Of a DNA stretch of 64,000 nt, positions 46,860 to 63,504 are shown piece by piece. Positions within the stretch are counted from its first letter, which is position 1, and the number at the start of each line of letters is the position of its first letter. The position numbers and the translations under genes are program-made. Source of the stretch: Acidobacteriota bacterium (GTDB lineage Bacteria; Acidobacteriota; Terriglobia; Bryobacterales; Bryobacteraceae); the NCBI GenBank assembly GCA_029776225.1, contig JAKOTR010000060.1, positions 124,001 to 188,000 of the forward strand. The letters are read 5' to 3'. Below the pieces are notes generated by a model. It was not told where the DNA came from, did not search any database, and saw nothing but the letters and a program-made list of their open reading frames with translations.

Positions 46860-49565
46860 TTAACCTTGGAAGGAACTTCTGCGGCTGCTCCGCGGCAGGG
46901 GAAGCGGGTATCCGATGAGGCAGAACTGATCCAGCGCGAACAAAATCACCGACTCCACATTCTCGGCCTTCGCCAGGCGCACCTCTTTCATCCACGGCGA
47001 CGTCGGGTCGCTGATGCCGATCAAGTGAGCGCTCTTCTCCCGCGGAAAATTTCTAACCAGCGGAGCCCGGATCGACATGAGGCACTTATCCAAGTTCCGG
47101 CCGTAAGTGAATCCGAAGCTCTCGGTCTTCAAACAGTCGAGCTTTTCCGGTGTCCAGTCGGCCGCGGGATAGTTGACCGCGGTGTTGAGCTCCGTCTCGT
47201 TGACATCCAGCGGGTACAGCACCTCGAAACGGCAGTCCGGAAACGATTCCCGCACGTACGCCATCACCTCGTTGGTGAAATTTCCGATGAGCGTGGAAAG
47301 AAACTCGGCCTCGCGCGGAAACTCCTCCACCGGCGCCGTGTGCTCGGTGATGATCCCCATTTCCGTCCCATACGCCGAGAAGAACGCGGCCTTGGTGTAC
47401 TCGTCGTAGAACGGCATTCCCGACCGGTGGTCGCGGAAGTACCACCACTGGCACTCGCCGAACTGCAAGTAGGGCTGCATTCCAGCGTCGTGCATGATCT
47501 GCGCCAGGTCCCGGAACGCCTCGCGCCAGAATGCGATGCTCGCCGGCGAAAAATTCGTTTGCAGCGCCGGCGTATTCACCCACACGGGGTCGCCCGCCGG
47601 TCCGCGCTGTGCGATCCCCGTCTCCGGCGAGTCGTCCCCGTGCTGCAACTCCATGCTGAGCGCCGCCACCGCGTCGATGCCGCGCGCCTTGAGCGCCGCA
47701 AAAAAGCTCCGCGTCCAGTCGCGTGCGGCGCGGTTCAACCTCGGCGTCGCGTGAAGATCGGTGCGCCACGTCCCGTCCACTCCCCCGGCCAGTGTGGCGC
47801 CGCTCACCTGAACCGTGAACCCTGACGAGGTCGTACTCGCCGATATCGTCACGTTGTTTCCGTCCGTGCCCATCGATCGCGAGTACACCCGCAGCACGTT
47901 TCCCTCCGCCTCCGCCCGGACGGCCATGAACCCGCGGTTGAGCTTCTGCTCCAGGGCCTTCGCAACGGTCTCCGCGGTGTCGCCGATGTAGTGCAGGTGG
48001 CTCACGGTCACCGTGCTGCCCGGATCCCCCACCCGCCCGATGCTGACTTCCGTCCTTTCTCCCGGCCCGAACACCGGCGCGCCCTCGAAGAGGACCGTGG
48101 CCGACGCATACTCGTGCCCGGCGCGAACCAGTTCGTAAAACCACATCGCCCCCACGTAGTGGTTCTGCCGCCCCCGAAATCCCAGCGCATCAATCAACCA
48201 CGCCGTGCGTTCCGGCGCCAGGCAAAGCGAATGGTCCGTGTCCCAGTCCGTGGCCAGCGTTACCTTGTCGTCGGCCTCTATAACCCTCAACTCGGCCGTT
48301 GGAATCGCGATCTCCAAGAAATCGAAGTAGAACGCGCCGCCCGCCGGCCCCTCGAACTCGACCTCCACCGTGTGTATGCCCGGCTCAAGCGTCCCCAGCG
48401 GAGCCCGCACCAGCACGTCTTCGCCGGGAATCAGCAGGTCCATCGCAACCGGTGCGCCGCCATCCACGGAAACGCGGATCCGCCCGCCGTTGTACGCCCG
48501 CCGCGTTCCCAGATAAAGCGAATGCTCCGCCTGTGCCCGGTACGTGCAGCTCAGCCCAGCGCCCGCCGACTCCGTCCATCGGATCGTGCCGCCCGAAAAA
48601 TTGCCCTGCCCCCTGTTCCACTCACCCGTATAACTCACCTCGGGAGCATCGTCCTCGATCCGCCGGCTGCCCGGACCCGCAACAACGTATGTCCTGTTAC
48701 TCCCGGTTACTGTCCAGTTACTAACTTCTACCGAAAACTCAGTTCGCTCAAACGCGCCGTGCTGCAAATCCGCCGCCCACGTCCACCGCATTTTGCGGAC
48801 GTTCGTCGTCGGAATCGCGCGCCCCTCGATGTCGGTCAGGTTTCCGAAATTTAAATGCACGCGCCATTTTGACGGCGACACCCCGCCGCTGAACCGCGCG
48901 TGCCACGGCGTCCAGCGTTCCGTCCGTGCTCCGGATACGAATCCGTACAACCCAACCCGGTTCCAGTTGGCCCCCGCCTCCGTCGCTGTCAGAATCAGCC
49001 GCGCACCCGAAGCCGCCGCCCGGACGGTGCTCGAGCCCGCATTGATCGCATCCGCCAAGCCCGCCACCGCTGTCTCCAGCGTGTCCCAGCCAGCCACCCA
49101 GAAGTTGTACTGCTCCTCGCCCCACGCCACCCCGATGTAATCGCCGCCGGTCGGCGTCCCTTCCAGTTCGAGCTCCGCCGTCGCCGCCACGTAATCGCCT
49201 TCCACCGGAGTCGCATGATCCCGCAGCCGCACGAGGCGCGGCATCGTCTCCCCTTCAATCCAGATGCGCAGATACGGCCACTCCACTGTCGGATACAAGT
49301 CCGAGTCCATCGGCACACAGTTCGTGCGCACTTCGTCGTAGGTGAGTTCAAGCCCGCTGAGGTCTCCATCCGGAAGGTTGCGGAAGACGGGATGTTCAAA
49401 CACATTGTCGCGGTTCCATTCCAGCACCGCCCAGTCGAACTGCTGGCGCCAGCAGCCGGAAATCGTGAACCCCGTCGCGCTCGCGCTGCTTAACGCCGCA
49501 ATCGCCGAGGGTCGCTCGAAATAGCATTGCAGATCCTGATCGGGCCGTAGTTTCTCAAGAACCAT
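46860..49565 (-). CDS. Large tail protein with repeated modules and TIM-barrel-like C-terminus
   Basis: The ATG at 49565 has GAGG upstream and is preferred to GTG 49571; length is about 901 residues. Two copies of a module with a long helix and a 'G(N)NVTISA'-type end lie at about 138-215 and 515-597. The first has LETAVAGLADAINAGSSTVRAAASGA; the second has AETVAKALEQKLNRGFMAVRAEAEGN. The C-terminal 300 residues (RSFFAALKARGIDAVAALSMELQ, AFRDLAQIMHDAGMQPYLQFGECQWW, FTNEVMAYVRESFPDCRFEVLYPLD) look like a glycoside-hydrolase-type TIM barrel, as in some tail proteins. It is probably a tail-tip, fibre or sheath-like component that contacts host glycans. Assignment is tentative. Confidence 0.6.
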   Translation of the reverse strand: MVLEKLRPDQDLQCYFERPSAIAALSSASATGFTISGCWRQQFDWAVLEWNRDNVFEHPVFRNLPDGDLSGLELTYDEVRTNCVPMDSDLYPTVEWPYLRIWIEGETMPRLVRLRDHATPVEGDYVAATAELELEGTPTGGDYIGVAWGEEQYNFWVAGWDTLETAVAGLADAINAGSSTVRAAASGARLILTATEAGANWNRVGLYGFVSGARTERWTPWHARFSGGVSPSKWRVHLNFGNLTDIEGRAIPTTNVRKMRWTWAADLQHGAFERTEFSVEVSNWTVTGSNRTYVVAGPGSRRIEDDAPEVSYTGEWNRGQGNFSGGTIRWTESAGAGLSCTYRAQAEHSLYLGTRRAYNGGRIRVSVDGGAPVAMDLLIPGEDVLVRAPLGTLEPGIHTVEVEFEGPAGGAFYFDFLEIAIPTAELRVIEADDKVTLATDWDTDHSLCLAPERTAWLIDALGFRGRQNHYVGAMWFYELVRAGHEYASATVLFEGAPVFGPGERTEVSIGRVGDPGSTVTVSHLHYIGDTAETVAKALEQKLNRGFMAVRAEAEGNVLRVYSRSMGTDGNNVTISASTTSSGFTVQVSGATLAGGVDGTWRTDLHATPRLNRAARDWTRSFFAALKARGIDAVAALSMELQHGDDSPETGIAQRGPAGDPVWVNTPALQTNFSPASIAFWREAFRDLAQIMHDAGMQPYLQFGECQWWYFRDHRSGMPFYDEYTKAAFFSAYGTEMGIITEHTAPVEEFPREAEFLSTLIGNFTNEVMAYVRESFPDCRFEVLYPLDVNETELNTAVNYPAADWTPEKLDCLKTESFGFTYGRNLDKCLMSIRAPLVRNFPREKSAHLIGISDPTSPWMKEVRLAKAENVESVILFALDQFCLIGYPLPLPRSSRRSSFQG

Positions 49566-49574
49566 GCGCACGCC

Positions 49575-52500
49575 TCACAGGCGAATCGTGACTGTCAAAT
49601 CCCGCCCCGGCGTCGACCCCGGACTCTGCCCTACCGAAAGTATGTTCAACGTGATCTCGTCTCCCGCTGCCAGCGGCGCTACCCCAAAGCAGTTGACGAT
49701 GTTGGAGTACTTCGATCCCGGCTCAATCACCAGCAGGCAATAGCGGCGTCCCCCGACAACAACCTCCATCTCAACCGGCTCCCCCGTCGGCGGTTCGTTC
49801 ACCATCGCGGACACGTTCCGCACTGCGTGTGTCTCTTGCACGATAATCGGCGGCGCCGCTTTCGTCTGGATTGCCAGGTGGCCCTCTACCTGAATCGTGT
49901 ACTGCCCTCCGGACAGCGTCCGGAGTCCCGCGTCAACCGTCCCCGTGTAGCACTCCGTAGTCGTCTTGCTGTTCCCCTTGCTGTTCGTGACGTACATGTC
50001 CGCGCTCGCAACGCGCGCGTCGGCGAGCGCAATCGGGTAGCTGAAATTCCCGCAAGCCGGGCTGCCGAAAAAGTCCCGCGGAAACGGCACGATAAAGGTC
50101 TTCTTGCTGAGGTGATACACCGCCGTCCCCTCTGCATGCGCGTCGGCATCGCAGCCCACTCCGCGCGTCACGCGGTACCGCAAACCTCCGTCCAACACTT
50201 CCTCGACGCGCATCACCTCCCGGTCGATCTGCACAAGCTCGACGCCGCTTCCGCCGTGTGCAGCCGTTAGTTCGATCACCGTGTCTTGCGTTCCCACGGC
50301 GGTCTTGAGCGCCGTCGCCGCCGGGCTGCGCAGCTCATCCCAGTAATTCAATGTCAGTGTCGCCGACGAGATGGTTCGCGTGTTGGCCAAGTCCGTGAAC
50401 GAGACTCCGGTCAACTCGAGAATCCCTTTGCCACGCAGCCAGACGCCGAATAGCGGCTCGCCCGGCACGTCCGTGTCGATCGCCGCGCCGCCCCCCATCA
50501 GCCGCCAGCGCGTCAACGGCGACAGTTCATAGCTGCACTCCCGCCCCAGCGCGTTCGCTGCCCTGCCCGAGACGTGTACCGTCATGCCGGCGCGGTTCGG
50601 AATCTCAAATTCCACCGGGCTGCTGCTTCCTGCGGCCCCAAACCGCCACCCCGATTCCGCAATCACGAATTCGCTTGTCTCATCCGGCGTCACAACCCAA
50701 TTGGAAGCGACCGTCAGCACGCTCGCCGTGTTCGAACTGATCACTCTCTCCTGCCCGGCTCCTCTGCCCCGCGTTATCCTCACGATCATCCCGCGGTGCT
50801 GGTTCTCGAGCATATTCAGCACCGAGCTGCCGATCGTGTTCTCGGAGTAAGTGGTCGCTGCACACTCCGGCTGAAGCTCGAACCGCCAGTAGAACTTCGC
50901 ATGGTCGAAATTCTCGTCCGGAGGCAAGACCAGTTCCGCCTCCAGCCCGCTGTCCACAAAGCTCGAGGCAATCGCCTGATTCGAGGCGATCCGCAGCAAC
51001 TGCTCCGGATTCGTTCCGCGGTAAACATGGAACGCCACGGCGCTCTCGCTGAAGCTCATTTCTTTGAGCCTGACGGCATTCGTATTCGTCCCCGGCGGAA
51101 TCGTCGCCCGCACAATGAATGACGTCTTGCCCTCGCCCCCGAACGCATCCACCGCTGTCACGGCGTAGTACAGCGTCTGATCCCCGGCGAGCGTCCCCCC
51201 ATGCGGGTCGACTTCCGCAGCCAGGCTCAGCACCGGAATGCCGGCCCCCGAAAGCGTCGGCTTTGGCGGCGCCGCAAATCCGACGGACAACGTTACGTTC
51301 GCCGTCGCTTCCGGCGATCCCGCGCTCTTCTCGACAATCTCGAACTGCGGCGTCCCGTCCGCGTCCTTGATTTTTCCCGCCAGAGGCCGCGGCATGCCCG
51401 TCCCAAATCCTGCCTGCCGGCCCGCCCGCGAGTTCTCCAGGCTGCCGTCGTCCGTGTACCACTCATCCCGGTGAATCTGAGCGGTGATTTTGACCGTACC
51501 GTAATTGGCCCCGGGAGCGATCCTTAACACCCGGAACGGCTGCCTGTTCAGCCCCTCTTTCAAGTAAGTCACTGTGATCAGATCCCCTGGACGCAGCGCG
51601 ACCCCTTTTACGCTTGTCTCCAGATCGATGTAACAATTCCCGCGGGTGGACTTATTCAAGAAGTAACTTGCAATCCGAGCCGCCTGGTTGAAATTGGCGA
51701 TCCCAAGCGCCGGCAGCGTCAGGCTGACTTCCTGCCCCACCCTCACCAGGTCGTCCGCGTCCGTCAGCGACAGACTGTCCTGCTGGTACTCGTTGAACGC
51801 ATCCTGGAACTCCACGCTCACGCGGTTCGGCGTCTCCGCCGTCCCCTTCGACCACATCCGCAGCGACGGCTCCCCGTTCTCCTTCCGCAGAATTCCGGAA
51901 AAACCGTTCGTACCGTCTCCGAATTCGTAGCTCGGCCAGCCGCCGTTGAGCGGCTCTCTGCTGTTGCTCCCGTACGGCTTCATCGGTTGCTGCGCCGCAA
52001 TCGTGTCTTCGACTCTCAGCTCCAGCCGCCCGTTGATCCCGTATGTCAGAAGCAGCCGGGCGCTGTTGCGTATCCCGCGGATCAAGTCCCCGGCGCTCCT
52101 CCGCCTCCGCACGACCAGGTTGCACTGGAACCGCGGTATCTGCACCGGGTTGCCGTGCAGATCCCGCGCGGGAATCAACTCGCCGCAGACCTGCGCCGCG
52201 CGCCCGAAACTCGGCAGATCGATCTCCTCCAGCGTCCACCCGGAACGCCTCAGCACGTCCAGCAGCACCCATGCCGGGTTATTTGTAAAACCCTCGCCGA
52301 GGTAACTCCCGTCCGGCCCGTACTGGTCCAGGCGCAGCCCCTCGACCAGCACTTCCACCTGCGGCAACGTACGCCCGGTGCTCACCTTGTTAGGAACCAC
52401 AACTGAGAGCGCCGCCATGCTGCCGTACGGATCGCCCAGCGGATTGCCGGCCGCATCCACGAAGTCCAGGTTGAATCCTCCCGTCCTGCCTCCCATGGTG

Positions 52501-53498
52501 ATCACGTGGAACCAACCCGTCGCGGTCATGTCCACGCCCGCGCGTCCCTCCGGGATTTCCATCCCGTTCACAACCACCTTCAGGACGGACTGCATTTCGC
52601 CCATCCCCAGCAGCACTTCCATGCGCGTCAGGTTGCCGTCGTTCTTCGCGAACACCACCGGAGGCTTGTACCACGCCGTTCCATACACTAGCGGAACATA
52701 GTCGTTGTAGCGCGCCTCGTTACTAAGTGGCTCGGATAGGTGCCAGCCCTTTTCCCCGTAGCTTCTCACCACTGTGCTCGACGGCACGAACTCTATCCCG
52801 CCGTAACGCGCCGTCGGCCGCCCGCTGCTATCTTTGGAAAACATTCCCCGAGCGCGGCACGCCGCAGCCGTGTGATCGCACCACGTGAATGGCGCACCAT
52901 CGTTGAGATTGCCGGCCCCCTCCGCCTGGTCCGCCGAGTAGCCGCAGCGGTACAGCGGCGAGTACTTTCCGCGCTCTCCTCCCCGCACCGCTTCGGCCCG
53001 CTGCGCGGCATTTTCCGGAAACCGCCACGGGCATCGCTTCTCGATGCGAACATCCGGCAGAAACACGCGCTGCAAGCCGAGCCGGTTGTTCACCGTCAGC
53101 CGCATCCTCGACTCGGTGATCTCTTCCGGCGCCTCCACAATCCCACGCAGCAGAACCGCGCTCTCGGACACCGCCGCCCCCTGCTTCAGGTCGAAGAACA
53201 CGAACCGCACCGTAATCTTGCTGCCCTTCCATCCGGTGCTCCGCTCTATTTGGGAACAGTGCGAGTCCGCGTTCGCCAGCTCCAGCGACATCCGCGCCAG
53301 CGCGTCCACCCCTTCTCCGGACCCCGTTCGGAACTCGAACAGGCTGTGCCGCAGCACCCGCGCTTCGTACTGGTGCCCCTCGTAGCTGACCCGGTGCGTG
53401 CTCCACCGCTCCACCGCCCCCGAGGGCAGCTCGCAGTCGAACAGCAGCAACGGCGTTTCCGTCACGCTCCGCTCTTTGATCTCGCTGATAGTCGCCAT
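49575..53498 (-). CDS. Tail-tip protein with phage_BR0599-like N-terminal region
   Basis: The ATG at 53498 overlaps the previous gene's stop (TGATG); 1307 residues. The N-terminal ~250 residues show CPWRFPENAAQRAEA, YSPLYRCGYSADQAEGAGN and WCDHTAAACRARGMF...ARYGGIEFVP, a cysteine pattern like the minor-tail phage_BR0599/DUF2163 group. The middle (about 290-730) resembles baseplate/tail-hub proteins (FQDAFNEYQQDSLSLTDADDL, TSVKGVALRPGDLITVTYLKEGLNRQPFRVLRI). The last third is beta-rich with fibronectin-like and carbohydrate-binding-like sheets (DPHGGTLAGDQTLYYAVTAVDAFGGEGK). It is likely the central tail hub and tip spike, analogous to the giant last genes of gene transfer agents. Confidence 0.7.
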   Translation of the reverse strand: MATISEIKERSVTETPLLLFDCELPSGAVERWSTHRVSYEGHQYEARVLRHSLFEFRTGSGEGVDALARMSLELANADSHCSQIERSTGWKGSKITVRFVFFDLKQGAAVSESAVLLRGIVEAPEEITESRMRLTVNNRLGLQRVFLPDVRIEKRCPWRFPENAAQRAEAVRGGERGKYSPLYRCGYSADQAEGAGNLNDGAPFTWCDHTAAACRARGMFSKDSSGRPTARYGGIEFVPSSTVVRSYGEKGWHLSEPLSNEARYNDYVPLVYGTAWYKPPVVFAKNDGNLTRMEVLLGMGEMQSVLKVVVNGMEIPEGRAGVDMTATGWFHVITMGGRTGGFNLDFVDAAGNPLGDPYGSMAALSVVVPNKVSTGRTLPQVEVLVEGLRLDQYGPDGSYLGEGFTNNPAWVLLDVLRRSGWTLEEIDLPSFGRAAQVCGELIPARDLHGNPVQIPRFQCNLVVRRRRSAGDLIRGIRNSARLLLTYGINGRLELRVEDTIAAQQPMKPYGSNSREPLNGGWPSYEFGDGTNGFSGILRKENGEPSLRMWSKGTAETPNRVSVEFQDAFNEYQQDSLSLTDADDLVRVGQEVSLTLPALGIANFNQAARIASYFLNKSTRGNCYIDLETSVKGVALRPGDLITVTYLKEGLNRQPFRVLRIAPGANYGTVKITAQIHRDEWYTDDGSLENSRAGRQAGFGTGMPRPLAGKIKDADGTPQFEIVEKSAGSPEATANVTLSVGFAAPPKPTLSGAGIPVLSLAAEVDPHGGTLAGDQTLYYAVTAVDAFGGEGKTSFIVRATIPPGTNTNAVRLKEMSFSESAVAFHVYRGTNPEQLLRIASNQAIASSFVDSGLEAELVLPPDENFDHAKFYWRFELQPECAATTYSENTIGSSVLNMLENQHRGMIVRITRGRGAGQERVISSNTASVLTVASNWVVTPDETSEFVIAESGWRFGAAGSSSPVEFEIPNRAGMTVHVSGRAANALGRECSYELSPLTRWRLMGGGAAIDTDVPGEPLFGVWLRGKGILELTGVSFTDLANTRTISSATLTLNYWDELRSPAATALKTAVGTQDTVIELTAAHGGSGVELVQIDREVMRVEEVLDGGLRYRVTRGVGCDADAHAEGTAVYHLSKKTFIVPFPRDFFGSPACGNFSYPIALADARVASADMYVTNSKGNSKTTTECYTGTVDAGLRTLSGGQYTIQVEGHLAIQTKAAPPIIVQETHAVRNVSAMVNEPPTGEPVEMEVVVGGRRYCLLVIEPGSKYSNIVNCFGVAPLAAGDEITLNILSVGQSPGSTPGRDLTVTIRL

Positions 53499-54286
53499 CA
53501 CTGCCTCGCCCGAATCCGAACCGTACACGAGTTGTCGTTTAAGCCGTGCGCGGTCCGCACAAGCTCATCTTGGGCAAACCAGGCGCGATAAACTCCGCTG
53601 CGGCTGGTCGTCTTTTTGTATTTCGATGCCCCGACCTGTGGCTCGACCTGGAACCCGAACAACTCCACCGTGCGCCCCGGAGCGATCCAGGCGCCAAACT
53701 CCACCGTCTCGTCCGCCGCATAGAGGTTCGTGCTCAGTTCCACCCGCCGCCAGGTGGGCCCGATGGCCGCCTCCTTTTCCGCCGCCGCACTCGGCGTGCT
53801 CACGAACAATCTCACCGCGCCCGGCTCCGCGCTCCTTGCGTAAACGCTCAGGCAGTACCCGTACCATCCCGGAGCCGCCAGGACCTGTGACACCTTGCCC
53901 TCACCCACCCCGGCGTTCATCACCGCGCATGCACCCAGTCCGCCCAGCGGATCCTCGTACCCTTTCGCAATACTTACCCCCTGCGACTTCTGCCACACCG
54001 CCGCACTCAAGTCTTCACTCCAACTTAGTAAGTTGCCGAACGGATCCAAGAACGTGAACGTGCCCAGCCTGCCTTCCACAACTTCAAACAAGTTCTCGAT
54101 CGCTTCCCATTCGGAGTCCGCAAGTCCCTTCAGCTCTAAGACCCACTCCACCTCGCCCGCGGCGGCGTCTCCGAGCTTTACCGTCCTCCCGTCTTCGGTC
54201 TCGTTCACAACGGTCCGCCGCCTTATCACCTTCCCGCCAGGAAACTGGCCCACCGCGCCGGTCAGTAACTGAGGAAAGCAAAGCAT
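53498..54286 (-). CDS. Distal tail-like protein with C-terminal beta domain
   Basis: The 262-residue protein begins CFPQLLTGAVGQFPGGK and contains VEGRLGTFTFLDPFGNLLSW at about 85-105. The same pattern opens and closes the neighbouring 118-residue protein (54288-54644), so the two are paralogues. An extra domain of about 150 residues follows (YGYCLSVYARSAEPGAVRLFVSTP, WRRVELSTNLYAADETVEFGAWIAPG), a jelly-roll carbohydrate-binding-like fold. It is likely a distal tail or tail-tip adaptor with a surface-binding domain. It starts one base after the 118-residue gene's stop and overlaps the next gene by one base. Confidence 0.6.
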   Translation of the reverse strand: MLCFPQLLTGAVGQFPGGKVIRRRTVVNETEDGRTVKLGDAAAGEVEWVLELKGLADSEWEAIENLFEVVEGRLGTFTFLDPFGNLLSWSEDLSAAVWQKSQGVSIAKGYEDPLGGLGACAVMNAGVGEGKVSQVLAAPGWYGYCLSVYARSAEPGAVRLFVSTPSAAAEKEAAIGPTWRRVELSTNLYAADETVEFGAWIAPGRTVELFGFQVEPQVGASKYKKTTSRSGVYRAWFAQDELVRTAHGLNDNSCTVRIRARQ

Positions 54287-54287
54287 C

Positions 54288-54644
54288 TCAGGCGTTCTCC
54301 CTCACCACCAGCACCGTCCGCCCGCGCGTTTCTCCGAGCAGTTCCACCTCAAATTCATCGTTCTCCAGGCTGCAATCCGTATGCACATTCCCCGTCCACG
54401 GATCCTCGAAAGAAAAACTCCCCAGCCGCCCCTGCGCCGCGGCAAAAAACTCCTCCAGCCTGGCTAATTCCGTTTCGTCCAGCAGATCCAACCGGATTAA
54501 CCACCGCCGCACCGGCGCGCCCCGCTTGCGGTACCGCTGGTCCGTCCCGTCGACAAACTTCAAGACCTCCGTCGCGTACGACAGCGCTCTGCCCGCCGGA
54601 TACTGCGCCACGGCTCCCGTCTTCAATCTCGGAAACGCGTTCAT
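54288..54644 (-). CDS. Distal tail-like protein (short paralogue)
   Basis: The 118-residue protein has FPRLKTGAVAQYPAGRAL at the N-terminus. LARLEEFFAAAQGRLGSFSFEDPWTGNVHTDC follows at about 60-95. These are the same marks as in the longer protein at 53498-54286. A small beta-rich protein with a conserved 'aromatic-DP-x-(T/F)-G-N' loop is compatible with tail-terminator or distal tail hub proteins such as the DUF2460-like group. Its start overlaps the tape-measure gene's stop (ATGA), so expression is coupled. Confidence 0.6.
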   Translation of the reverse strand: MNAFPRLKTGAVAQYPAGRALSYATEVLKFVDGTDQRYRKRGAPVRRWLIRLDLLDETELARLEEFFAAAQGRLGSFSFEDPWTGNVHTDCSLENDEFEVELLGETRGRTVLVVRENA

Positions 54645-55240
54645 AGATCGTTCACCACGTCGTTGAGCGCGTGCGAGTTCAGCATTGCCTCGCGAACCGC
54701 CCGCGCGATGTCCTCGCTGTGGTCGATAAACGAACGGCTATCCATCGCCTGCACCTGTATGGTGATTTGCTGGCCGCCTGCAACCGGTTGATACTTTCTC
54801 GCCTCGTCTGCCCCGCTTGCGGAAATACTTCCCTCAAAGCTGATCGAGACCGGCTTTGTATAGGGCGTCAGCACGGTTACCGGCTCGGAGTTTCCCCCGC
54901 CGAACAGCTTTGCCAGCCCGCTCACCAGTGGAGCCAGCCCCAGCCCGCTGCCGATCACCTTCGAAAAGACACTGCCAATTCCCCCGCCCGAAGCGCCGCC
55001 CGCCGTCGCGTGCGCGATCGTATTCTGCAGAATCGCCTGCGTGTTTTGAGCCACCGCATCGGCCTGGGCCTGGCTTGTGAGTCTCAGTTGTTCGAGCTGC
55101 GTCACGAGCTGCGAGCCGCCGTCTCCCCCGGTCCATCCCGAACGAGCCGCCACGTCCCTCACCAGCCCGTCCAGCACCTCCGCGATGCTCTGCCCCGAAC
55201 CCGTCACCGGCAGAACAACCTGACTGTTACTCCTGGCCAC
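54641..55240 (-). CDS. Very short tape-measure-like protein
   Basis: The 199-residue protein lies directly after the tail assembly chaperone frame (overlapping it by 14 bp), which is the position of the tape-measure gene in long-tailed phages. It has a polar helical N-terminus (AEVLDGLVRDVAARSG, LVTQLEQLRLTSQAQADAVAQNTQAILQNT). A hydrophobic glycine-rich segment follows (GIGSVFSKVIGSGLGLAPLVSGL, about 98-120), then a beta-rich C-terminus with AVREAMLNSHALND. Tape-measure length sets tail length, so 199 residues implies a very short tail. The call rests on position more than on similarity. Confidence 0.5.
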   Translation of the reverse strand: MARSNSQVVLPVTGSGQSIAEVLDGLVRDVAARSGWTGGDGGSQLVTQLEQLRLTSQAQADAVAQNTQAILQNTIAHATAGGASGGGIGSVFSKVIGSGLGLAPLVSGLAKLFGGGNSEPVTVLTPYTKPVSISFEGSISASGADEARKYQPVAGGQQITIQVQAMDSRSFIDHSEDIARAVREAMLNSHALNDVVNDL

Positions 55241-55918
55241 GCCTCATCTCCTCCGCTAACTCGGCCTCCAGAACAAGCATCGCCTCCACCTGCCGTGCCG
55301 TCATTTCCTCCACTCGCGGATAGCCAAGCCGCTTCCACACCTGAAACTCTTCCACCCACGCCAGGCTCTCCGCGGTGATGTAAGACTTGGGACATTCCTC
55401 CGTCGCCACGTTTCCGCGAGCCCAGACTACCCGCCTCTCAGCCGGCTCGTTCCTTCTCAACCATCCGCAGCGACGCTTCTTTTCCAGCCCGCCTTTCCTG
55501 CATTCGTCGCACTTCCACGCGGCTGGATTGGAATACTGGAAATGGAAGGCGACCCTCAGTTTTTTCGCTCTTCCTCGCTCAACCCGAACTCGCGCTTGAT
55601 CGCCGCCAGCGCTTCGCGGCACAAGTCCTCGGGCCCTGCCTCGATCAGCCTTTCCGGAGTTGCGGGCTCGCCGTCCAGCTCAAGCCCCTCTATCCGTACA
55701 AGCCCCCACCGCAGATACACCTCATCGATTTCGCTGGTGAGCAGGGCCGCCTCCAGCTTCTCCCGCGAATCTCCAGACGCCAGGCACTCCGCCTTGGCGG
55801 CCACGTCGCGCAGCCGCCGCAGCAACTCCATCCGCCGCCCGAACGACGCCCGTGCGATCGTGAACGTAACTCCCGGAATACTCTGCGCTGCGATTCTAAC
55901 TTCGGTCTCGTAGTTCAT
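55227..55918 (-). CDS. Tail assembly chaperone, G-T fusion made by -1 frameshift
   Basis: The first frame (55556-55918) encodes 120 residues, starting MNYETEVRIAAQSIPGVTFT after a GGAAGGA ribosome-binding site. Just before its TGA is the heptamer A AAA AAC. A shift of -1 there leads into the second frame, which runs ...KKLRVAFHFQYSNPAAWKCDEC to a stop at 55227, giving a fusion of about 230 residues. The T-like part has a cysteine cluster (WKCDEC, RRCGW) and a helix YITAESLAWVEEFQVWKRLGYP. This is the lambda G/GT arrangement: both products help assemble the tail and must be in a fixed ratio. The tape-measure candidate comes next, as expected. Confidence 0.82.
55506..55565 (-). promoter_or_regulatory. 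-1 programmed frameshift signal (slippery A AAA AAC plus stem)
   Basis: On the minus strand the heptamer AAAAAAC (55565-55559) sits in the zero frame as CGA AAA AAC directly before the TGA. Five bases later GTCGCCTTCC (55553-55544) pairs with GGAAG-T-GCGAC (55516-55506), a 10-bp stem with one bulged T and a 27-base loop. Slippery heptamer, 5-nt spacer and stem match the classic bacterial -1 frameshift architecture. This is direct sequence evidence, not a similarity call. Confidence 0.85.
55556..55918 (-). CDS. Tail assembly chaperone, unshifted G-like product
   Basis: This is the zero-frame product of the chaperone gene, 120 residues ending FGLSEEERKN. It carries the FTIARASFGRRMELLRRLRDVAAK helix and the DEVYLRWGLVRIEGLELDGEPAT region typical of G-like chaperones. 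It starts at ATG 55918, 8 bp after the tail tube gene's stop, and ends at TGA 55556-55558. Most ribosomes should end here, with a minority shifting to make the longer G-T fusion. See the fusion and the frameshift signal for the rest of the gene. Confidence 0.8.
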   Translation of the reverse strand: MNYETEVRIAAQSIPGVTFTIARASFGRRMELLRRLRDVAAKAECLASGDSREKLEAALLTSEIDEVYLRWGLVRIEGLELDGEPATPERLIEAGPEDLCREALAAIKREFGLSEEERKN

Positions 55919-55926
55919 CGTCCTTC

Positions 55927-57102
55927 CTATCCGAACGCGATGTACATCTCGTCGTCGCCCGTCCCCTGCGCGCGGCAGCCCGAAAACCGCCACTGCAAGC
56001 GGTTATCGCCATCGTCGAATTCCGGCACTTCGGGAACCACGCTCTTCAAGTAACCTCCGAATAACTGCCCGGGCTGTTCCCCAAGCTGCCACATGATGCC
56101 GATCGGCGACACCTGCCGCGCCGCCTGGTAAAGCGCCTTTGTTGCCGTGTCGTCCACCTCGTAGAGGTCGAAGTCCACCAACACCGTCCGCATCCCCGCC
56201 GAGATACACCGCGGTCCGTCGCTCCCGAATTCTTTCCGCTCGGTGTCGATATCGTTATCGAGCGTCAACGTGGCCGCCGTTATCGTGTAAAACCGCTCCG
56301 GCAAATTCCCCAGCCAGGCCTGCCCCAGGTGCCCCGGAATGATCGAGTAGTCGAAGGCCTCCAGCGCCGGCTCCGGAGGAAAGCTCATCAGCTCTCCCTC
56401 GCCTTCAACAAAACTCGCGCTGTCGATGAGATCCCGCGCCGTTCCGCTGAACCTGAACTCGTGATAGTCGCTGTTCACGCGGATCTGCATCCTGTCCACC
56501 GCCGCGCCGCTCAGGATTCGGTGCACCGCCCCCGCCGGACCCCAGTAATCGAAAATACTTACCGTACTTAGATCGGTCGCGAGTCCGTAGGTTATCGTCG
56601 GCCCGATAGGCGTACCCTCGCTCGGCAGCAGGGAAAACGGAGCGTTCAGTTCCACCGTAGCCTCGTCCACGATCGATGCCACGAACCGCAGCTCGCCCCC
56701 GAACGTCACCGCCTGCCCCACCGAAAGCCCGTGGCTGCCCTGAAACGTGAGCAGCTTCGCATCCGTGTTCACCCCCGCAATGCCCCCGCCAAAATAGATT
56801 GGCGGCGCTCCCAGGCTTGCCTGGAACAACGGCCCGTATCCCGGCTCCGCATCCTGTCGCGTCCAGCCCGTCATGTATGTCGTCAGCTCGAAGGTTGTTC
56901 GTTTCCTCAGCCCGGCGGGCCACCCCGGAAAGGTCCGCGTTCCCGTCTTGTCTCTCCGCTCCGCCCGCACGCGCCGCTGCCTGGTAGCTAGCTTCACTGC
57001 CGGAAACCGGTTCGAGCCGTCGATCATCGGCACCTGCCCGTAACTCAGCTCGAGCGCCGCGTACAATCGGTTGTCGTTAGAAGATATATATCCGCACGGC
57101 AT
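55927..57102 (-). CDS. Putative major tail tube protein
   Basis: The 391-residue protein precedes the tail assembly chaperone gene, the usual place of the tail tube gene. It begins MPCGYISSNDNRLYAALELSYGQVP and is beta-rich (KRTTFELTTYMTGW, TITAATLTLDNDIDTERKEFGSDGPRC). An inserted Ig-like/Hyaluronidase-like stretch is seen around residues 100-170 (LLTFQGSHGLSVGQAVTFGGELRF). The C-terminus has LQWRFSGCRAQGTGDDEMYIAFG. The length is greater than lambda's tube protein because of the insert. Assignment rests on gene order and beta content; sequence similarity is not obvious by eye. Confidence 0.55.
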   Translation of the reverse strand: MPCGYISSNDNRLYAALELSYGQVPMIDGSNRFPAVKLATRQRRVRAERRDKTGTRTFPGWPAGLRKRTTFELTTYMTGWTRQDAEPGYGPLFQASLGAPPIYFGGGIAGVNTDAKLLTFQGSHGLSVGQAVTFGGELRFVASIVDEATVELNAPFSLLPSEGTPIGPTITYGLATDLSTVSIFDYWGPAGAVHRILSGAAVDRMQIRVNSDYHEFRFSGTARDLIDSASFVEGEGELMSFPPEPALEAFDYSIIPGHLGQAWLGNLPERFYTITAATLTLDNDIDTERKEFGSDGPRCISAGMRTVLVDFDLYEVDDTATKALYQAARQVSPIGIMWQLGEQPGQLFGGYLKSVVPEVPEFDDGDNRLQWRFSGCRAQGTGDDEMYIAFG

Positions 57103-57124: not shown

Positions 57125-57619
57125 TCAGTAACTTACCTCGACCTCAAACATTACTTTCGCCGTCTGTAGAAAGTTTTTGCCCCCGTGCTTGATCGGGCCG
57201 AACTCCACTTTGTAGCCCCCCGTATAGAACATTCCGCCACCCCAATCGCCCCGGCTCGCATCCAGCACCTCGGTAACCGCGCCGGTGTAGTATTCCAGGT
57301 TGCTCGACACTTTTTCCAGGCGGTCGTGAGTAACCCTCACCTCGACCACCATGTGCGCCTTTCCCGAGAACGTGCGGAATTTTTCTTTTTGCAGGTTCGC
57401 CAGCGTTTCGCAGTAGGTGTAAATGGCCGGATAGGCCGCTCCCGCGGATCGCTCCGCCGTTGCACTCGCAACGTTCAGGGCTATCACCTGGCTTGGGTCG
57501 ATGGGCGCCAGTTCCACGCGCTCCCGCTCCGCGATGGCCGACACCGCATAGGGCAGCCCTGTCGCCGCCGTCATGATGTCCCGCACTCTGCGTGTCACCG
57601 CGCTTCCCAGTACCGGCAT
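57125..57619 (-). CDS. Small tail-terminator or neck-like protein
   Basis: This 164-residue protein starts MPVLGSAVTRRVRDIMTAATG after a GAGGGG ribosome-binding site. A C-terminal region with YYTGAVTEVLDASRGDWGGGMFYTGGYKVEFGP follows. The alternation of small alpha/beta and beta strands fits tail-completion proteins located between the head connector and the tube. It lies 4 bp after the 247-residue gene and 22 bp before the tube gene. No specific family is recognised. Confidence 0.45.
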   Translation of the reverse strand: MPVLGSAVTRRVRDIMTAATGLPYAVSAIAERERVELAPIDPSQVIALNVASATAERSAGAAYPAIYTYCETLANLQKEKFRTFSGKAHMVVEVRVTHDRLEKVSSNLEYYTGAVTEVLDASRGDWGGGMFYTGGYKVEFGPIKHGGKNFLQTAKVMFEVEVSY

Positions 57620-57623
57620 CCCC

Positions 57624-58367
57624 TCACCCTCTCAGCAGTGTGCGCCCGGTCCGCAGAATCGTTTGCGGCTCCTGCCCGTTGCCCGGCAGCGCTCCTTGTA
57701 CGAGGCCTGTCGCCGGCGCCGTCCAGGTTTCGTTCACCCTCAGCGGGCTGGCATTCTGCAACGTCTGCTCCTGCGCCGAAAAACCCACGTAGACGTTCCA
57801 CCCGGCCGCACACGCCGGAGGCCTCACCGGCTTCACCACGAGCGTGTTTCCCGAGGGTACGCTCAATGTTGCAACCTCGCTCGGACTGCCCTCCTCACCC
57901 CTCGTGTTCCGCCACGCCGCCCGCACGTAATACGTCGCCGCTCCTACCCCTGCCGCCGGAATGTAACTGAGCTCGGGCTTCTCCGCTCGCGGAATCGGAT
58001 CGAAGACCACTCCCAGCCCGGTTTGCAAAAGCGCCTCGCGCGCCCGCGCGGCCAGTTTCTCGTACTCCTTCCACTTCCCCTGGTAGCGGTCGTTTAGCTG
58101 CCGGTAATAGGCGTCCCGGTGAATCAGGGCCAACGTGTGAAACACGTGCCATTTGCGCAGCGGCCCGGTCACGACGATGTTTGCCAGCCCCGTTGTTCCC
58201 TGGCGTCCGGCCAGCATGGCTTCCAGCTCGATGCCCAGCTCGTCGTGCGCCAGGTTCAGCTTCACCGTCAGGTCGATCTGCTCGGTCGCCGCCAGCTCGA
58301 GCACTGACGATTCATATGCAATCAAGTCCTCGATTCTGGAAACCGCACCATCCGTAAATAGCGCCAT
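57624..58367 (-). CDS. Head-tail connector-like protein with C-terminal beta domain
   Basis: The 247-residue protein has a helical N-terminal half (DGAVSRIEDLIAYESSVLELAATEQIDL, HRDAYYRQLNDRYQGKWKEYEKLAARAREAL) suitable for a head-completion or connector role. A fibronectin-like beta domain follows from residue 140 (AATYYVRAAWRNTRGEEGSPSEVATLSVPSGN, GWNVYVGFSAQEQTLQNASP). Beta domains of this type on virion proteins often decorate the particle surface. It follows the 106-residue gene by 11 bp. The split into two domains is visible; the function is inferred from position. Confidence 0.5.
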   Translation of the reverse strand: MALFTDGAVSRIEDLIAYESSVLELAATEQIDLTVKLNLAHDELGIELEAMLAGRQGTTGLANIVVTGPLRKWHVFHTLALIHRDAYYRQLNDRYQGKWKEYEKLAARAREALLQTGLGVVFDPIPRAEKPELSYIPAAGVGAATYYVRAAWRNTRGEEGSPSEVATLSVPSGNTLVVKPVRPPACAAGWNVYVGFSAQEQTLQNASPLRVNETWTAPATGLVQGALPGNGQEPQTILRTGRTLLRG

Positions 58368-58378: not shown

Positions 58379-58699
58379 CTACGCTTTCTGCCGTACGCCT
58401 TTCAAGGCCCGAAGCTCGGCCTCCGAAATCACCGTGATCTGCATGCGCTTCGCTGCGGCCGCCTGCGCCGCGGCTCGGCTCGCCTCGGCCTGCTCCTGCC
58501 GAAAGGCCTTGGTTTCCTCCGCCGTGGCCAGCCTCGCCGTTCCTTGAACCACCAATTCGGCCGCCACCCTGCGGGTAACTTCGGTTTTCACACCGGCGCG
58601 TCCGCCATCCGGCGTTTCCTTGCTCACCACCACCACAAACGGCTCTTCGAGTGTCGCTTCCAGCTCACTTACTTTCTGGTAATAGACCTTTAAGTTCAT
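58379..58699 (-). CDS. Small head-region protein, 106 residues
   Basis: The 106-residue protein follows the coat gene after a hairpin, with the ribosome-binding site GGGAGAGGGAA before its ATG. It is beta-rich first (MNLKVYYQKVSELEATLEEPFVVVVSKE). A helical, alanine- and glutamine-rich region follows (RQEQAEASRAAAQAAAAKRMQ), probably a coiled coil. It could be a head decoration or head-completion protein, but no family is recognised. Confidence 0.45.
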   Translation of the reverse strand: MNLKVYYQKVSELEATLEEPFVVVVSKETPDGGRAGVKTEVTRRVAAELVVQGTARLATAEETKAFRQEQAEASRAAAQAAAAKRMQITVISEAELRALKGVRQKA

Positions 58700-58789: not shown

Positions 58790-59701
58790 CTAGCTGTTCA
58801 CCTGAACGCCGAAGGAGTTCCGCAGCACTCCCACGCCATACAGCACGTCCACCGTGAACTGCTGGGCCAGCGTGTTCGGCTGATAGCTGAGCGTCACTCG
58901 CATTCCGAAGTTGCCCACTTCCGCGTATTCGGAGATGGCTCCGGTACCCGGCAGCGGTTGCGGCAACCGGCGAATAACCAAACCGATCGCGCTCCTGGCG
59001 AACGCCAGGTTATGCGTCGTCACCGGAGCGCTCCCGGTCTTTGCCACGAACTGCGAACGGAACACGTAGAAGTCCTTGATCTTGCCGACGGTCCCGTCCA
59101 CCAGCGCCCGCAAGCCCGCGTCACCGGCCTTTTCGTACTCGCTGAACCTCGGGATTTGCCGCAGCGCCGAGTATGTTGCCGAGTCCACAACCAGGTACTT
59201 CGGCTCGCTCGCCGGCACCTTCGCCTCGAAGAGCGCCGTTTCCGCGGCGTCGATGACTTCTTCGGTGATCGGCGTGCCCGGCGTCCCGACCGGCGTGTTG
59301 GCCGTGAACCTGCTATACAGGTTGAGAAGGTCCGTCTCGATCTTCTCGGCCAGGGCGATCATTGCCGGCTGCATGTACAGCTTCAACAGGTCCGGAACCG
59401 CCAGGACTTTCGTTACGTCCGGCACCAGGAAGGTCGCCTCGGCGTGCGTGTCGAGCACGATCTGCGCGTTGCCCAGGCTCGGGTTCTGCGGCTGCACCGT
59501 GCCCCCCTGCGCCAGGTTGTGGGCCTCCAGGACCGGAGGAATCGGCACGTTCACCGTGTCCCCCGACTGGGCCAGGGTTGGTTCGAAATCGCGATTCACG
59601 AGGTTCCCCATCACGAGGTTCCCCATCAGTGCCGGCAAGGCGTCCACCGCCACCATTTTGACGATCGCGTTAGCTACGTTAGTTGAAGTGATTGCTGGCA
59701 T
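58790..59701 (-). CDS. Major coat protein, P22-like
   Basis: The 303-residue protein has an excellent ribosome-binding site (AAGGAGA). The N-terminal MPAITSTNVANAIVKMVAVDAL...NLVNRDFEPTLAQSGDTVNVPIP is characteristic of P22 coat-protein-like subunits. AEATFLVPDVTKVLAVPDLLKLYMQPAMIALAEKIETDLL, KYLVVDSATYSALRQIP and YSYQPNTLAQQFTVDVLYGVGVLRN-like C-terminal blocks follow. It forms the icosahedral shell on the scaffold encoded upstream. There is no separate protease gene, which fits P22-like heads. A 15-bp in-frame duplication gives MGNLVMGNLV near residue 26. Coat identity is strong from pattern and position. Confidence 0.75.
   Translation of the reverse strand: MPAITSTNVANAIVKMVAVDALPALMGNLVMGNLVNRDFEPTLAQSGDTVNVPIPPVLEAHNLAQGGTVQPQNPSLGNAQIVLDTHAEATFLVPDVTKVLAVPDLLKLYMQPAMIALAEKIETDLLNLYSRFTANTPVGTPGTPITEEVIDAAETALFEAKVPASEPKYLVVDSATYSALRQIPRFSEYEKAGDAGLRALVDGTVGKIKDFYVFRSQFVAKTGSAPVTTHNLAFARSAIGLVIRRLPQPLPGTGAISEYAEVGNFGMRVTLSYQPNTLAQQFTVDVLYGVGVLRNSFGVQVNS
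59596..59625 (-). repeat. 15-bp perfect tandem duplication inside the coat gene
   Basis: The plus-strand unit TCACGAGGTTCCCCA occurs twice in a row (59596-59610 and 59611-59625). It encodes the doubled pentapeptide MGNLV-MGNLV (residues 26-35 of the coat protein) without changing the frame. The copies are identical, so the event is either recent or under pressure to stay identical. Confidence 0.85.
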
Positions 59702-59747: not shown

Positions 59748-60332
59748 TTACACTCCCCGCAACGTCTGCGACGCGATCCTCACAATCTCCTGCCGGATCT
59801 GTTCCGCTTCTTCCGCGCTCATCCCCGGCCTGATCTTGTCCAGGTCCGCCGCCCCACTCCCCAACACCGGCGGTTTCGGCGCCGGCGCCGCGCCCGAGCC
59901 GCCTGCGATCCGCGCCGGCAGAAACTCAGGGTTCTCGCTCAGGAAGTGCGAAAGGTATTCCTTCAATCCCATCTCTCCCTGCTCCCCTCGCGCCACCAGC
60001 CGGCCGTCTTCCGTCCGGTAGATGTCGTCCTTCACCGCACGGAACGCCACGTCGACCTTCGCCACTCCCATCCGCTGCAACTCCGCGCGGATCGTGGCTG
60101 CCCGCTCGGTTTCTTCGGCGATCTGCCGGCTCCGCTTGTTCTCCTCCACCAGCTCGTTGAGCCTGCGCTCCAGTTGTTCCCGGCGCTTCCGCTCCTCGAT
60201 CAGTTCGGCTTTGTAAGCCGGCTCCGTCTTCAACTGCTGTCTCTTGAAGAACTCCTCGATCGTCTCCCGAATAATGCCCCGGATGTCGTCTTGGTTGTTC
60301 CCTTGCTCCAACGTCTCTTTTTGTTCGTCCAT
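59748..60332 (-). CDS. Scaffold-like protein
   Basis: The 194-residue protein is mostly helical and charged: DDIRGIIRETIEEFFKRQQL, ELIEERKRREQLERRLNELVEENKRSRQ (coiled coil, about 42-75), then a proline/alanine-rich linker near 140-160. The C-terminal helix is KIRPGMSAEEAEQIRQEIVRI. Placement between portal and coat genes, together with the coiled coil and acidic/basic alternation, matches scaffold proteins such as the DUF4355-like group. The ribosome-binding site GGGGAGAG precedes the ATG. No protease domain is present. Confidence 0.65.
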   Translation of the reverse strand: MDEQKETLEQGNNQDDIRGIIRETIEEFFKRQQLKTEPAYKAELIEERKRREQLERRLNELVEENKRSRQIAEETERAATIRAELQRMGVAKVDVAFRAVKDDIYRTEDGRLVARGEQGEMGLKEYLSHFLSENPEFLPARIAGGSGAAPAPKPPVLGSGAADLDKIRPGMSAEEAEQIRQEIVRIASQTLRGV

Positions 60333-61752: not shown

Positions 61753-63057
61753 TCAGATCAGCCTCTGGTTCCGGTAGCCCACCGGTGGCTGGGGGCGGCA
61801 TTCTTGCCAAATCAAATACCCCAGCGCGTCCGATAAGTGTGTCCGCCGCGGGTTGCTGTCCTTATCGATTACGTTGCTGTCCGCTTTGTAACTTACTTCC
61901 TCGAAATCCTTGATCAGCTCGACGCACTTTCTATCCACGACTAAGTGCCGCTCCCCAGCCGCCGTCTTCAGCTTCGCGTTGACCAGCGCCACGCGCTCCC
62001 GGACTAAAGGGTTCGAGCGCGGGACTTTGTAACTGACGTTCACGTATCCCGCACGGCGGAAGAACTCGCGGATTATCGTGTAGTCCGTTGTCCCGCATGT
62101 CTGCATCCGGCTCCCCGAGGCGTCCCCGTAGACGCAGATCCCTGCGGCGTGCCTCGGGAACCGCGCCTGGAATTCCGTGCACGCCTCCTCCGTGGTCGCC
62201 CGGCTGATCACGATCTCGTCAACCACCCTCACCACGCCTTCCGAAATTTGCGCCACAACCGAGCACATCGGGTCCACGTTGAAGTCCAGCGCCCAAAGAA
62301 GGGGCAGCCGCGGATCGACCTCCACATCGGTCACGTGCTCCTCCCGCCGGAAGGCGTGATACACCAGGCCGCCGTTTATGTTTAGGTACTCCCCCAGCAC
62401 TTCCTGCCGGTAGAATTTCTCGTCGTAGCTGTACCGCAGCCGCTCGTAGAAGTCCGGAACCCGTTCGAGCAGAAACCGGTTCTCGAACGGCTTCGCCACG
62501 ATCGCTTCGTACCCCTCCACCGGATTCGCCAGAAAGCGACGGTAGACCCAGTCATACCCCTTCGGTGTCCAGACTCCGAACCCGCACAGCCGCTTCGCCT
62601 TTGGGTCCCGCAGCCTGCCTTCGAGCACTACCCAGGCCTGTTCCTGGCAGTAAGTCAGCTCGTCGACTCCGAACCACGCGAGGTTAGTTCCTCTTAGCCG
62701 TTCGAATTCATCCACTGCCCGGAACAGTATCTTCGACCGCGTATCCCGCATGATCACCGTGTTTTCCGCCTTGTTGTGATCGTACGGAATGCGGTTCTTT
62801 TCGAGAATTTCGAACAGTGTGCTCTGCGTCGCGTCACGCAGCATCGGGTAAGTCGGCGCTCCCAGCAACCCGGTCCGCCCGGCGTTGACATAGCTCAGCT
62901 TGATAGCTTCCTGGCACAGCGCCTGGCTCTTTCCCGATCCGATCGGGCCCGAAAATCCTTTGAACCGCGCTGCCGATTTGTGAAACCGCGCCTGCGATGG
63001 CAGCGGCGTATGCTCTATTTCTCGGATGCACAGTCCTTTTCGTCCCGTTCGACCCAT
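61753..63057 (-). CDS. Large terminase subunit
   Basis: The 434-residue protein has the packaging ATPase Walker A GPIGSGKSQ near residue 37 and Walker B AWFGVDELTYC near 130. The C-terminal nuclease fold has LLWALDFNVDPMCSVVAQ (first acidic cluster) and VYGDASGSRMQT (second). RTHLSDALGYLIWQ is a final block usual in TerL. Both the motor and the nuclease residues look intact, so it should be able to cut and package DNA. It starts inside the 3' end of the gene at 63015-63284. This is the best-supported gene of the cassette. Confidence 0.88.
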   Translation of the reverse strand: MGRTGRKGLCIREIEHTPLPSQARFHKSAARFKGFSGPIGSGKSQALCQEAIKLSYVNAGRTGLLGAPTYPMLRDATQSTLFEILEKNRIPYDHNKAENTVIMRDTRSKILFRAVDEFERLRGTNLAWFGVDELTYCQEQAWVVLEGRLRDPKAKRLCGFGVWTPKGYDWVYRRFLANPVEGYEAIVAKPFENRFLLERVPDFYERLRYSYDEKFYRQEVLGEYLNINGGLVYHAFRREEHVTDVEVDPRLPLLWALDFNVDPMCSVVAQISEGVVRVVDEIVISRATTEEACTEFQARFPRHAAGICVYGDASGSRMQTCGTTDYTIIREFFRRAGYVNVSYKVPRSNPLVRERVALVNAKLKTAAGERHLVVDRKCVELIKDFEEVSYKADSNVIDKDSNPRRTHLSDALGYLIWQECRPQPPVGYRNQRLI

Positions 63058-63462: not shown

Positions 63463-63504
63463 GTCATTGCCTGTCTGGCTGGGTTTTATATCCAGGAGGG
63501 AATC

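Follow-up and report, generated by a model that had tools for sequence, protein, structure and literature searches.

Two tail genes of known kinds in a family-wide phage-derived cluster that looks like a domesticated, gene transfer agent-like element of Acidobacteriota

In a 64,000-nucleotide stretch of DNA from an Acidobacteriota bacterium of the family Bryobacteraceae, order Bryobacterales (the window; GenBank assembly GCA_029776225.1, contig JAKOTR010000060.1, positions 124,001 to 188,000), two giant tail genes lie side by side on the minus strand at 46860-53498, just where a first-pass annotation had placed them. They end a head–tail gene cluster of about 16.2 kb, the recognized genes of which are structural or packaging genes, the rest being of unknown type. 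The two genes are known kinds of parts; their parent cluster, for which the literature searched yielded no description, looks like a domesticated element resembling a gene transfer agent (GTA). On balance, we favor the view that the products of the two genes make up the tip with which a domesticated tailed-phage particle, most likely working as a GTA, faces its recipient. A fuller version of this proposal is tentative and perhaps slightly more apt to be wrong than right: that the cluster is a family-wide, independently domesticated GTA of soil Acidobacteria, with a P22-coat-like head, a T5/RcGTA-like hub, an N4-gp64-type glycan-active barrel, and a tip module lost in some lineages to retune the choice of DNA recipients.

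The hub and barrel proteins

46860..49571 (-): TIM-barrel tail-tip protein, predicted, 903 residues (open reading frame (ORF) list, Pfam, AlphaFold, fold matches)
49575..53498 (-): tail hub, predicted, 1307 residues; gpL-like four-cysteine domain fused to a J/megatron-like hub (ORF list, Pfam, AlphaFold model of residues 1-720)

Both ORFs have full-length orthologs in relatives, at 51-70% identity, and median ratios of nonsynonymous to synonymous substitution (dN/dS) in close pairs are 0.15 for the 903-residue gene and 0.14 for the 1307-residue gene; these are therefore real genes rather than chance ORFs. The hub ORF is taken here from 53498, as in the first-pass annotation; a mechanical ORF list starts it at 53528, giving 1317 residues.

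The larger protein is predicted to be a tail hub with the layout of T5 pb3 along residues 1-720, which agrees with what had been proposed for it. Phage-tail_3 (PF13550) matches the hub at E 2.8e-10 (40.8 bits against a gathering cut-off of 23) and all 44 hub orthologs scanned, and a profile of residues 1-720 searched against the PDB finds hub proteins of the T1, lambda, and T5 types. An AlphaFold model of the same residues (44 sequences; predicted local distance difference test score (pLDDT) 86.4) retrieves T5 pb3 in Foldseek at E 1.6e-31, followed by lambda J (8k35; 2.1e-17), RcGTA 6tba_8A (1.1e-15), and the lambda tip chain 8iyk_L (1.3e-7), which we take to be gpL. Alignment of the model with VIA-align gives Z 20.5 for T5 pb3, with 568 residues aligned at a root-mean-square deviation (rmsd) of 3.8 and 15% identity over model residues 1-697. 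For RcGTA 6tba_8A it gives Z 16.4 (360 aligned, rmsd 3.0) and, for T1 9l9p_J against model residues 3-237, Z 12.7 (198 aligned, rmsd 3.6).

Four hub cysteines—C156, C185, C207, and C214—are invariant in all 44 aligned orthologs, in keeping with a predicted tail-tip Fe-S domain of the gpL/RcGTA-hub type. In the RcGTA hub, four cysteines bind an Fe-S cluster (PMC7296036, in the part available). The cysteine pattern noted at first pass is thus a sound observation, having both invariance and a counterpart in RcGTA, but its attribution to the BR0599 minor tail family is not supported. No BR0599 match at E<=1 was found by Pfam in the whole hub or in any of 44 ortholog N-terminal parts (first 720 residues), one of which has PF09931 at E 0.01, and NCBIfam returned no BR0599 match with the hub and two N-terminal pieces.

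The 903-residue protein was expected to end in a glycoside-hydrolase-type barrel, and an AlphaFold model examined for that fold (49 sequences, pLDDT 92.3, predicted template modeling score 0.91) contains it. The model comprises N-terminal beta domains, a sandwich resembling a carbohydrate-binding module (CBM) at about 307-426, and a TIM barrel at about 434-895 that carries a sheath-like insert at about 493-587. We consider the protein a predicted relative of N4 gp64, which is a subunit of a non-contractile sheath. The protein matches PF23845 (non-contractile tail sheath TIM barrel) at E 4.9e-22 (78.8 bits against a cut-off of 27); the sole phmmer match in the PDB at E<=1 is N4 Gp64 (1.8e-9); and the model superimposes on N4 gp64 (9yf5) with Z 26.8, 291 residues aligned, rmsd 2.7, and 21% identity. 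A GH42 beta-galactosidase (1kwg, Z 23.3), the PgaB C-terminal hydrolase (4p7o, Z 21.3), and beta-amylases are also matched, although a shared fold alone shows no function for the barrel. The CBM-like part is matched by a MiXBM profile (E 0.0015) and in Foldseek (2.9e-5), and residues 493-587 weakly by a sheath-domain profile (E 0.011).

Whether the barrel is more than a building block is finely balanced. Nine residues (E641, Q655, Q703, E706, W709, W710, D723, E817, and Q882) are invariant in all 49 orthologs and identical in 20 of 20 sequences when 14 orthologs are compared with six phage homologs that are merely 22-25% identical, a degree of conservation that, in our judgment, suits a site better than a scaffold. 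Three of the nine, E641, E706, and E817, are positioned at barrel strands 3, 4, and 6 or immediately past them in the AlphaFold model, so that the acidic residues anticipated at the barrel ends are indeed predicted there, but not as a pair at strands 4 and 7. In clan GH-A the catalytic pair sits at those two strands. Here, strand 7 ends at invariant G852 with no counterpart of the strand-7 nucleophile; the barrel appears to hold a conserved site, but not the textbook clan GH-A pair. A purely structural TIM domain, a sheath or decoration fold like that of N4 gp64 and devoid of catalysis, is accordingly a close contender that we put just short of an even chance. The nearest relative being a sheath subunit speaks for it, as do the missing nucleophile and four aspartates (D442, D444, D789, and D881) that are invariant in orthologs only and not all kept in the phage homologs. 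The nine residues retained in six of six distant phage homologs, the GH42- and PgaB-type folds, and the CBM-like domain argue the other way.

The first-pass annotation had likened the end of the cluster to that of GTAs, with their TIM-barrel-bearing tail-tip protein. The resemblance stands, but neither protein has a match at E<=1 to the Pfam domain GTA_TIM, and the barrel is of the N4 gp64 type (PF23845). RcGTA chains are absent from the best 50 structural matches of the 903-residue protein, and a relation to the GTA_TIM domain is possible.

The window's own genome (G000) holds four distant relatives of the TIM protein outside the cluster, at 30-34% identity (L290 on contig C2, L292 on C11, L294 on C45, and L293 on C18). 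Contig C2 also carries an integrase match, so prophages with related tips may coexist with the cluster.

Distribution and inheritance of the cluster

Within the window's family, inheritance of the cluster is mostly vertical. At a capsid ortholog threshold of E<=1e-60, 104 of the family's 121 sampled genomes (75 of the 86 of good quality) and 70 of 76 genera have the capsid gene. Across a sample of the order, it occurs in 194 of 250 genomes, 124 of 163 good-quality genomes, and 73 of 84 genera, with one match per genome in 188 of the 194 positives. Since 191 of these belong to the window's family, two to sister family f2, and one to sister family f3, the element spans the family, and few members come from sister families. 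The TIM gene is similarly confined: among 297 genomes across the phylum, full-length matches come from G000 and G348 only, both of the window's family, while 2 of 18 f3 genomes (G044 and G049) have a full-length ortholog.

Gene order is equally well preserved. All 16 of the 24 fetched cluster loci that reach the terminase gene (TerL) are collinear, although a 199-residue gene has no match in L035 and L042 and the terminase match in L042 is partial. Among 80 named loci, the order holds in 78 as far as each contig extends, some loci lacking a match for a single gene, mostly the variable 199-residue one. The two exceptions are L134, where a terminase piece adjoins the TIM gene, and L086, which is missing the genes left of the tail protein and has its Wzt match on the opposite strand. 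In L134, the region at about 9.8-12.3 kb has the appearance of a decayed remnant, with the terminase piece beside the C-terminal part of the TIM gene, then Wzt and M24. Extra DNA separates the tape-measure-like and distal tail genes in L047/L112 (the same contig) and L048, the two clusters from f3 (10.6-14.5 kb in L047, 10.6-12.1 kb in L048).

Most cluster genes are near constant in length across relatives, and median dN/dS is 0.105-0.22 for seven of them, computed from the 38-40 closest usable pairs per gene, which are not independent of one another. Isolate phages offer no near relative: in 50,697 phage records the TIM protein has 33 matches, none with 80% cover, and the capsid has 76, all below 60% identity and the top-ranked at 29%. 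IMG/VR has 225 relatives, and the 80 of these that were kept are on contigs of 8.1-21.3 kb, perhaps because virus finders excise just this cluster.

Trees were compared for 19 genomes possessing rpoB (C-terminal half), EF-G, TIM, and hub genes, with the rpoB half and EF-G forming a two-gene host tree and 12 genes a cluster tree. Host and cluster trees have 9 of 16 splits in common, against a mean of 0.34 and a maximum of 3 in 2000 label shuffles; the host tree and a TIM+hub tree have 8 of 16. Distances correlate with those of the host at 0.68 for the cluster and 0.58 for TIM+hub, where the best of 2000 permutations reached 0.49 and 0.50, respectively. Imposing the host topology on the cluster data costs 84 log-likelihood units, as opposed to 2,919-3,979 for 20 shuffled host topologies.

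The flanks tell a related story. Among 72 loci with at least 2.5 kb of downstream sequence, 26 have a gene for Wzt, a symporter (SSF), or an M24 peptidase starting no more than 1.5 kb from the TIM gene, and in 29 Wzt, symporter, M24, or GH31 lies within 10 kb; five other loci share another neighbor at 1.25-1.29 kb. In L133, the usual neighbors GH31, M24, and Wzt stand inverted beside the cluster at 12.8-17 kb, an arrangement that suggests a local inversion. With the whole cluster kept family-wide and its tree near that of the host, the comparison with GTAs is stronger than the first-pass annotation, made from the window alone, could have known.

A GTA, a killer particle, or a prophage

A close parallel for the cluster is RcGTA, which it probably resembles in working without being a member. 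Like RcGTA, it is a short head–tail cluster kept in host genomes, with a distal tail protein of the DUF2460 family, a hub bearing four conserved cysteines and a megatron fold (6tba_8A, Z 16.4), a GTA spike-fiber domain above cut-off (NF048003, 52.9 against 36 bits), and a short tape measure. Unlike RcGTA, it has a P22-coat-like capsid, belongs to a different phylum, lacks a GTA_TIM match and a recognized tail peptidase, and has a barrel of the N4-gp64 type. Moreover, hub and megatron-like parts are fused here in one gene and the barrel occupies a separate gene, whereas in RcGTA separate proteins serve as hub (g13) and megatron (g15) (PMC7296036, available part). The megatron equivalog NF048004 gives E 3.8e-4 and 18.3 bits, far from the 800 that it demands. 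Because the megatron model and the GTA_TIM domain are both unmatched, we do not claim membership of the RcGTA lineage.

Other systems share single parts. The N4 sheath is built from gp64 and its receptor-binding partner gp65 as a six-fold heterodimer (PMC12633501, in the portion available). N4 gp64 shares the TIM barrel, and equivalents of E641, E706, and E817 are kept in an N4-like gp64; but it has 417 residues and pairs with gp65, whereas the protein here has 903 and stands beside a siphophage-type hub. The same barrel occurs in the 900- and 915-residue proteins of Acinetobacter phage Loki (ORF17) and Escherichia phage Halfdan (gp05), both adjoining a distal tail gene and Loki's also near the tape measure gene; these come from free phage genomes of 41-43 kb, however, and are 22-24% identical over 27-30% of the protein. 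T5 pb3, a baseplate hub, has the same layout as hub model residues 1-697, yet is 15% identical and belongs to a complete phage. Finally, FpGTA of Faecalibacterium is likewise a GTA-like element outside Alphaproteobacteria, but podovirus-like, from a gut host, and with packaging shown by particle-DNA reads (PMC12946183, as far as its available text goes).

How such a particle might work can be sketched from these parts. Terminase and portal would fill a small head, and a short non-contractile tail would assemble on a tape measure of about 200 residues. We infer that the 903- and 1307-residue proteins sit at the tip: the hub would plug the tube, closing and opening the tail channel, and the 903-residue protein would hang on as a sheath or adsorption module of the N4-gp64 type. 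Spike-fiber and TIM proteins may hold glycans on the recipient surface, with the CBM-like domain and barrel binding polysaccharide, and the TIM protein may perhaps trim the glycan so that the hub reaches the membrane. Some cells would thus make particles that deliver packaged, mostly host, DNA to relatives; that the DNA would be that of the host is suggested by the want of recognized replication genes together with vertical retention.

Two features mark out a GTA gene set, a head–tail cluster inherited with its host and the lack of replication or integration functions of its own, and both are found here. The first is seen in 104 of 121 genomes, a near-host tree, and common flanks; the second applies among recognized genes, Pfam, PHROG, and NCBIfam scans having recognized no integrase, replication, or repressor gene in the 16-kb unit. 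A domesticated killer particle of the PBSX type, packing DNA that is incidental to its purpose of killing competitors, would account equally well for gene content and vertical retention. The terminase does match TIGR01547, the PBSX-type terminase family, below cut-off (E 2.3e-10, 40.4 against 105 bits), and a tip gene gained and lost among clusters would fit changes of target range. But nothing in the sequence is specific for killing, no immunity gene or lysin is recognized in the cluster, and the TIM protein is not hypervariable (48 orthologs are 49-70% identical to the window copy), so that we regard this explanation as unlikely. Less likely still is an ordinary prophage family, whether intact or cryptic, that is very common and keeps reinfecting the window's bacterial family. 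The phage-type genes, the lack of the capsid gene in 17 of the family's 121 genomes and in nearly all of f3, some tree conflicts, extra capsid copies, an ORF resembling a recombinase piece by eye after the G361 cluster, and the counting of the cluster among viral contigs by IMG/VR all fit such prophages. They would hardly be expected, though, to lack any recognized replication, integrase, or repressor gene, to have near-constant gene lengths and host neighbors common to different genera, to follow a tree near that of the host, or to be without a close isolate phage relative. Three further candidates were discarded: a tailocin, since capsid, portal, and terminase are present and conserved; a phage satellite, given a full tail and no recognized integrase; and contamination, because 104 of the family's 121 separate genomes carry the capsid gene.

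Several findings nonetheless weigh against a vertically inherited GTA. The capsid ortholog is missing from 17 of the family's 121 genomes and is not order-wide, occurring in 1 of 18 genomes of f3; a few genomes have two or three copies. Cluster tree and two-gene host tree do not fully coincide (approximately unbiased test, p 0.017, with 1000 replicates, too few by the program's own warning; Shimodaira–Hasegawa test, p 0.51). Three host groups, G010+G020+G035 (support 1.00), G009+G006+G015 (0.956), and G004+G021 (0.914), are not recovered, with G010, G009, and G004 placed differently in the cluster tree; some transfer or tree error must therefore be allowed for. Similarly, 46 of the 72 loci have no Wzt, SSF, or M24 flank within 1.5 kb, so either cluster or neighbors have moved. 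Among the integrase matches listed for the cluster contigs of 16 genomes, several of them short, the closest, in G006, lies about 42 kb from the cluster. The cluster also has no recognized gene for lysis, a regulator, or a tail peptidase.

Ten more clusters were read as far as the hub end, and the TIM gene, too, is absent from seven (L295, L299, L300, L301, L302, L307, and L308) and present in three (L298, L303, and L305). Five of the genomes (G014, G027, G029, G030, and G034) were chosen for having no TIM ortholog, the others came from the phylum and order samples, and L297, L304, and L306 are excluded from the tally as their contigs end too early. Four of these seven have a Wzt-type gene beginning within about 50-105 bases of the hub stop, at the place taken in other clusters by TIM followed by Wzt. 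The same locus therefore exists with and without the TIM gene, which is a removable part of the cluster.

As side observations, the extra capsid relatives occur in G387, G033, G496, and G360 (66-73% identity in the first three), and possibly represent related prophages or a second element. One capsid ortholog, G005:C548:15720-16625, has an in-frame TAG, possibly through decay or an assembly error. In the TIM-less L307 (G361:C12), the first ORF after the hub has 195 residues, and by eye its start resembles the N-terminal domain of a tyrosine recombinase.

The IMG/VR entry L159, which holds the cluster, is presumably Candidatus Solibacter usitatus, judging by its taxon number. A 2011 paper described the genome of that species as free of intact or degenerate prophages (PMC3174227, in the text available), and such elements are therefore easily overlooked. 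Known GTAs are mostly from Alphaproteobacteria, with few described elsewhere (PMC12946183), and the accessible part of a 2022 GTA classification recognizes three groups, each exapted independently, and makes no mention of Acidobacteria (PMC9662315). A search for GTAs or conserved prophages linked to Acidobacteria turned up no GTA of the phylum in the available text of PMC5900883, PMC12142844, PMC3174227, PMC13055281, and PMC12507015; bioRxiv and most subscription papers lay outside the search. Nor did the literature search turn up a paper that describes a TIM barrel in a non-contractile sheath. If our favored reading of a domesticated GTA is true, a cluster found in 70 of 76 sampled genera would provide a specific, testable route of gene exchange for hard-to-culture soil bacteria, and an intact tip would offer a predicted glycan role amenable to assay.

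Remaining genes of the cluster

53498..54286 (-): 262-residue protein, weak DUF2460-like N-terminus, then GTA head-spike-fiber domain (residues 85-230) (Pfam, NCBIfam)
54288..54644 (-): distal tail protein, DUF2460 (PF09343, E 2.3e-10, 40.7 bits against 30.4)
54641..55240 (-): short tape-measure-like protein, 199 residues (TMP phrog_3779)
55227..55622 (-): overlapping ORF, likely frameshift extension of the chaperone-like ORF (conserved, no constant start)
55556..55993 (-): tail-assembly-chaperone-like ORF ending in slippery A AAA AAC (sequence)
55927..57102 (-): tail protein, 391 residues (phrog_290 'minor tail protein'; 23 of 23 orthologs match, best 2.8e-18)
57125..57619 (-): conserved protein (collinear in relatives; no PHROG match)
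57624..58367 (-): conserved protein (collinear in relatives; no PHROG match)
58379..58699 (-): conserved small protein (collinear; weak PHROG matches of unknown function alone)
58790..59701 (-): major capsid protein, P22-coat-like, weakly N4-gp56-like, 303 residues (PF11651, PHROG)
59748..60332 (-): 194-residue protein between portal and capsid (collinear; no useful family match)
60360..61736 (-): portal protein (phrog_145, E 5.1e-51)
61753..63057 (-): large terminase (phrog_2, E 7.8e-38; PF03237, 26.9 bits against 22)
63015..63350 (-): small ORF overlapping the terminase start, candidate small terminase (in 12 loci, all among the 16 reaching TerL; no useful PHROG match)

The 262-residue protein matches PF09343 below cut-off (E 0.007) and NF048003 GTA_spike_fiber at E 6.4e-14 and 52.9 bits; the distal tail protein matches TIGR02217 (Rcc01695 family) below cut-off (E 0.018). 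For the tape-measure-like protein, 18 of 20 orthologs match phrog_3779 at E<=0.1 (best 5.6e-6, window copy 0.0051), and its length varies among relatives, with called ORFs of 123-325 residues. The capsid protein matches PF11651 at E 2.2e-17, PHROG major head at 8.3e-45, and TIGR04387 at 7.6e-5, below cut-off.

Overlapping ORFs with a slippery heptamer are the layout of siphophage tail chaperones, and the ORF at 55556..55993 presumably has that role by analogy. The A AAA AAC lies within 55556-55622 (-), just ahead of this ORF's stop, with the next ORF in an overlapping frame. An in-frame heptamer occurs in 127 of 131 loci (A AAA AAC in 125, A AAA AAT in two) and in none of the other four, under a pattern that required A or T in the second triplet. 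By position, the 55927..57102 product may be the tube protein, and the 194-residue protein occupies what would be the scaffold or protease slot. PDB profile searches with ortholog alignments of the 391-, 199-, 247-, and 164-residue proteins gave nothing better than E 0.04, and the PHROG search gave nothing useful for the small and unknown-type cluster proteins.

Upstream of the terminase, the ORF at 63199-63867 (+) includes a stretch resembling a STAS anti-sigma-factor antagonist by eye; it has no match in the other loci searched, most of which have little upstream sequence. The host genes beyond the TIM gene are, by Pfam, a flavodoxin, a Wzt-type ABC transporter, a symporter, an M24 peptidase, and GH31, and those beyond the terminase encode a xylose-isomerase-like protein and a ROK protein.

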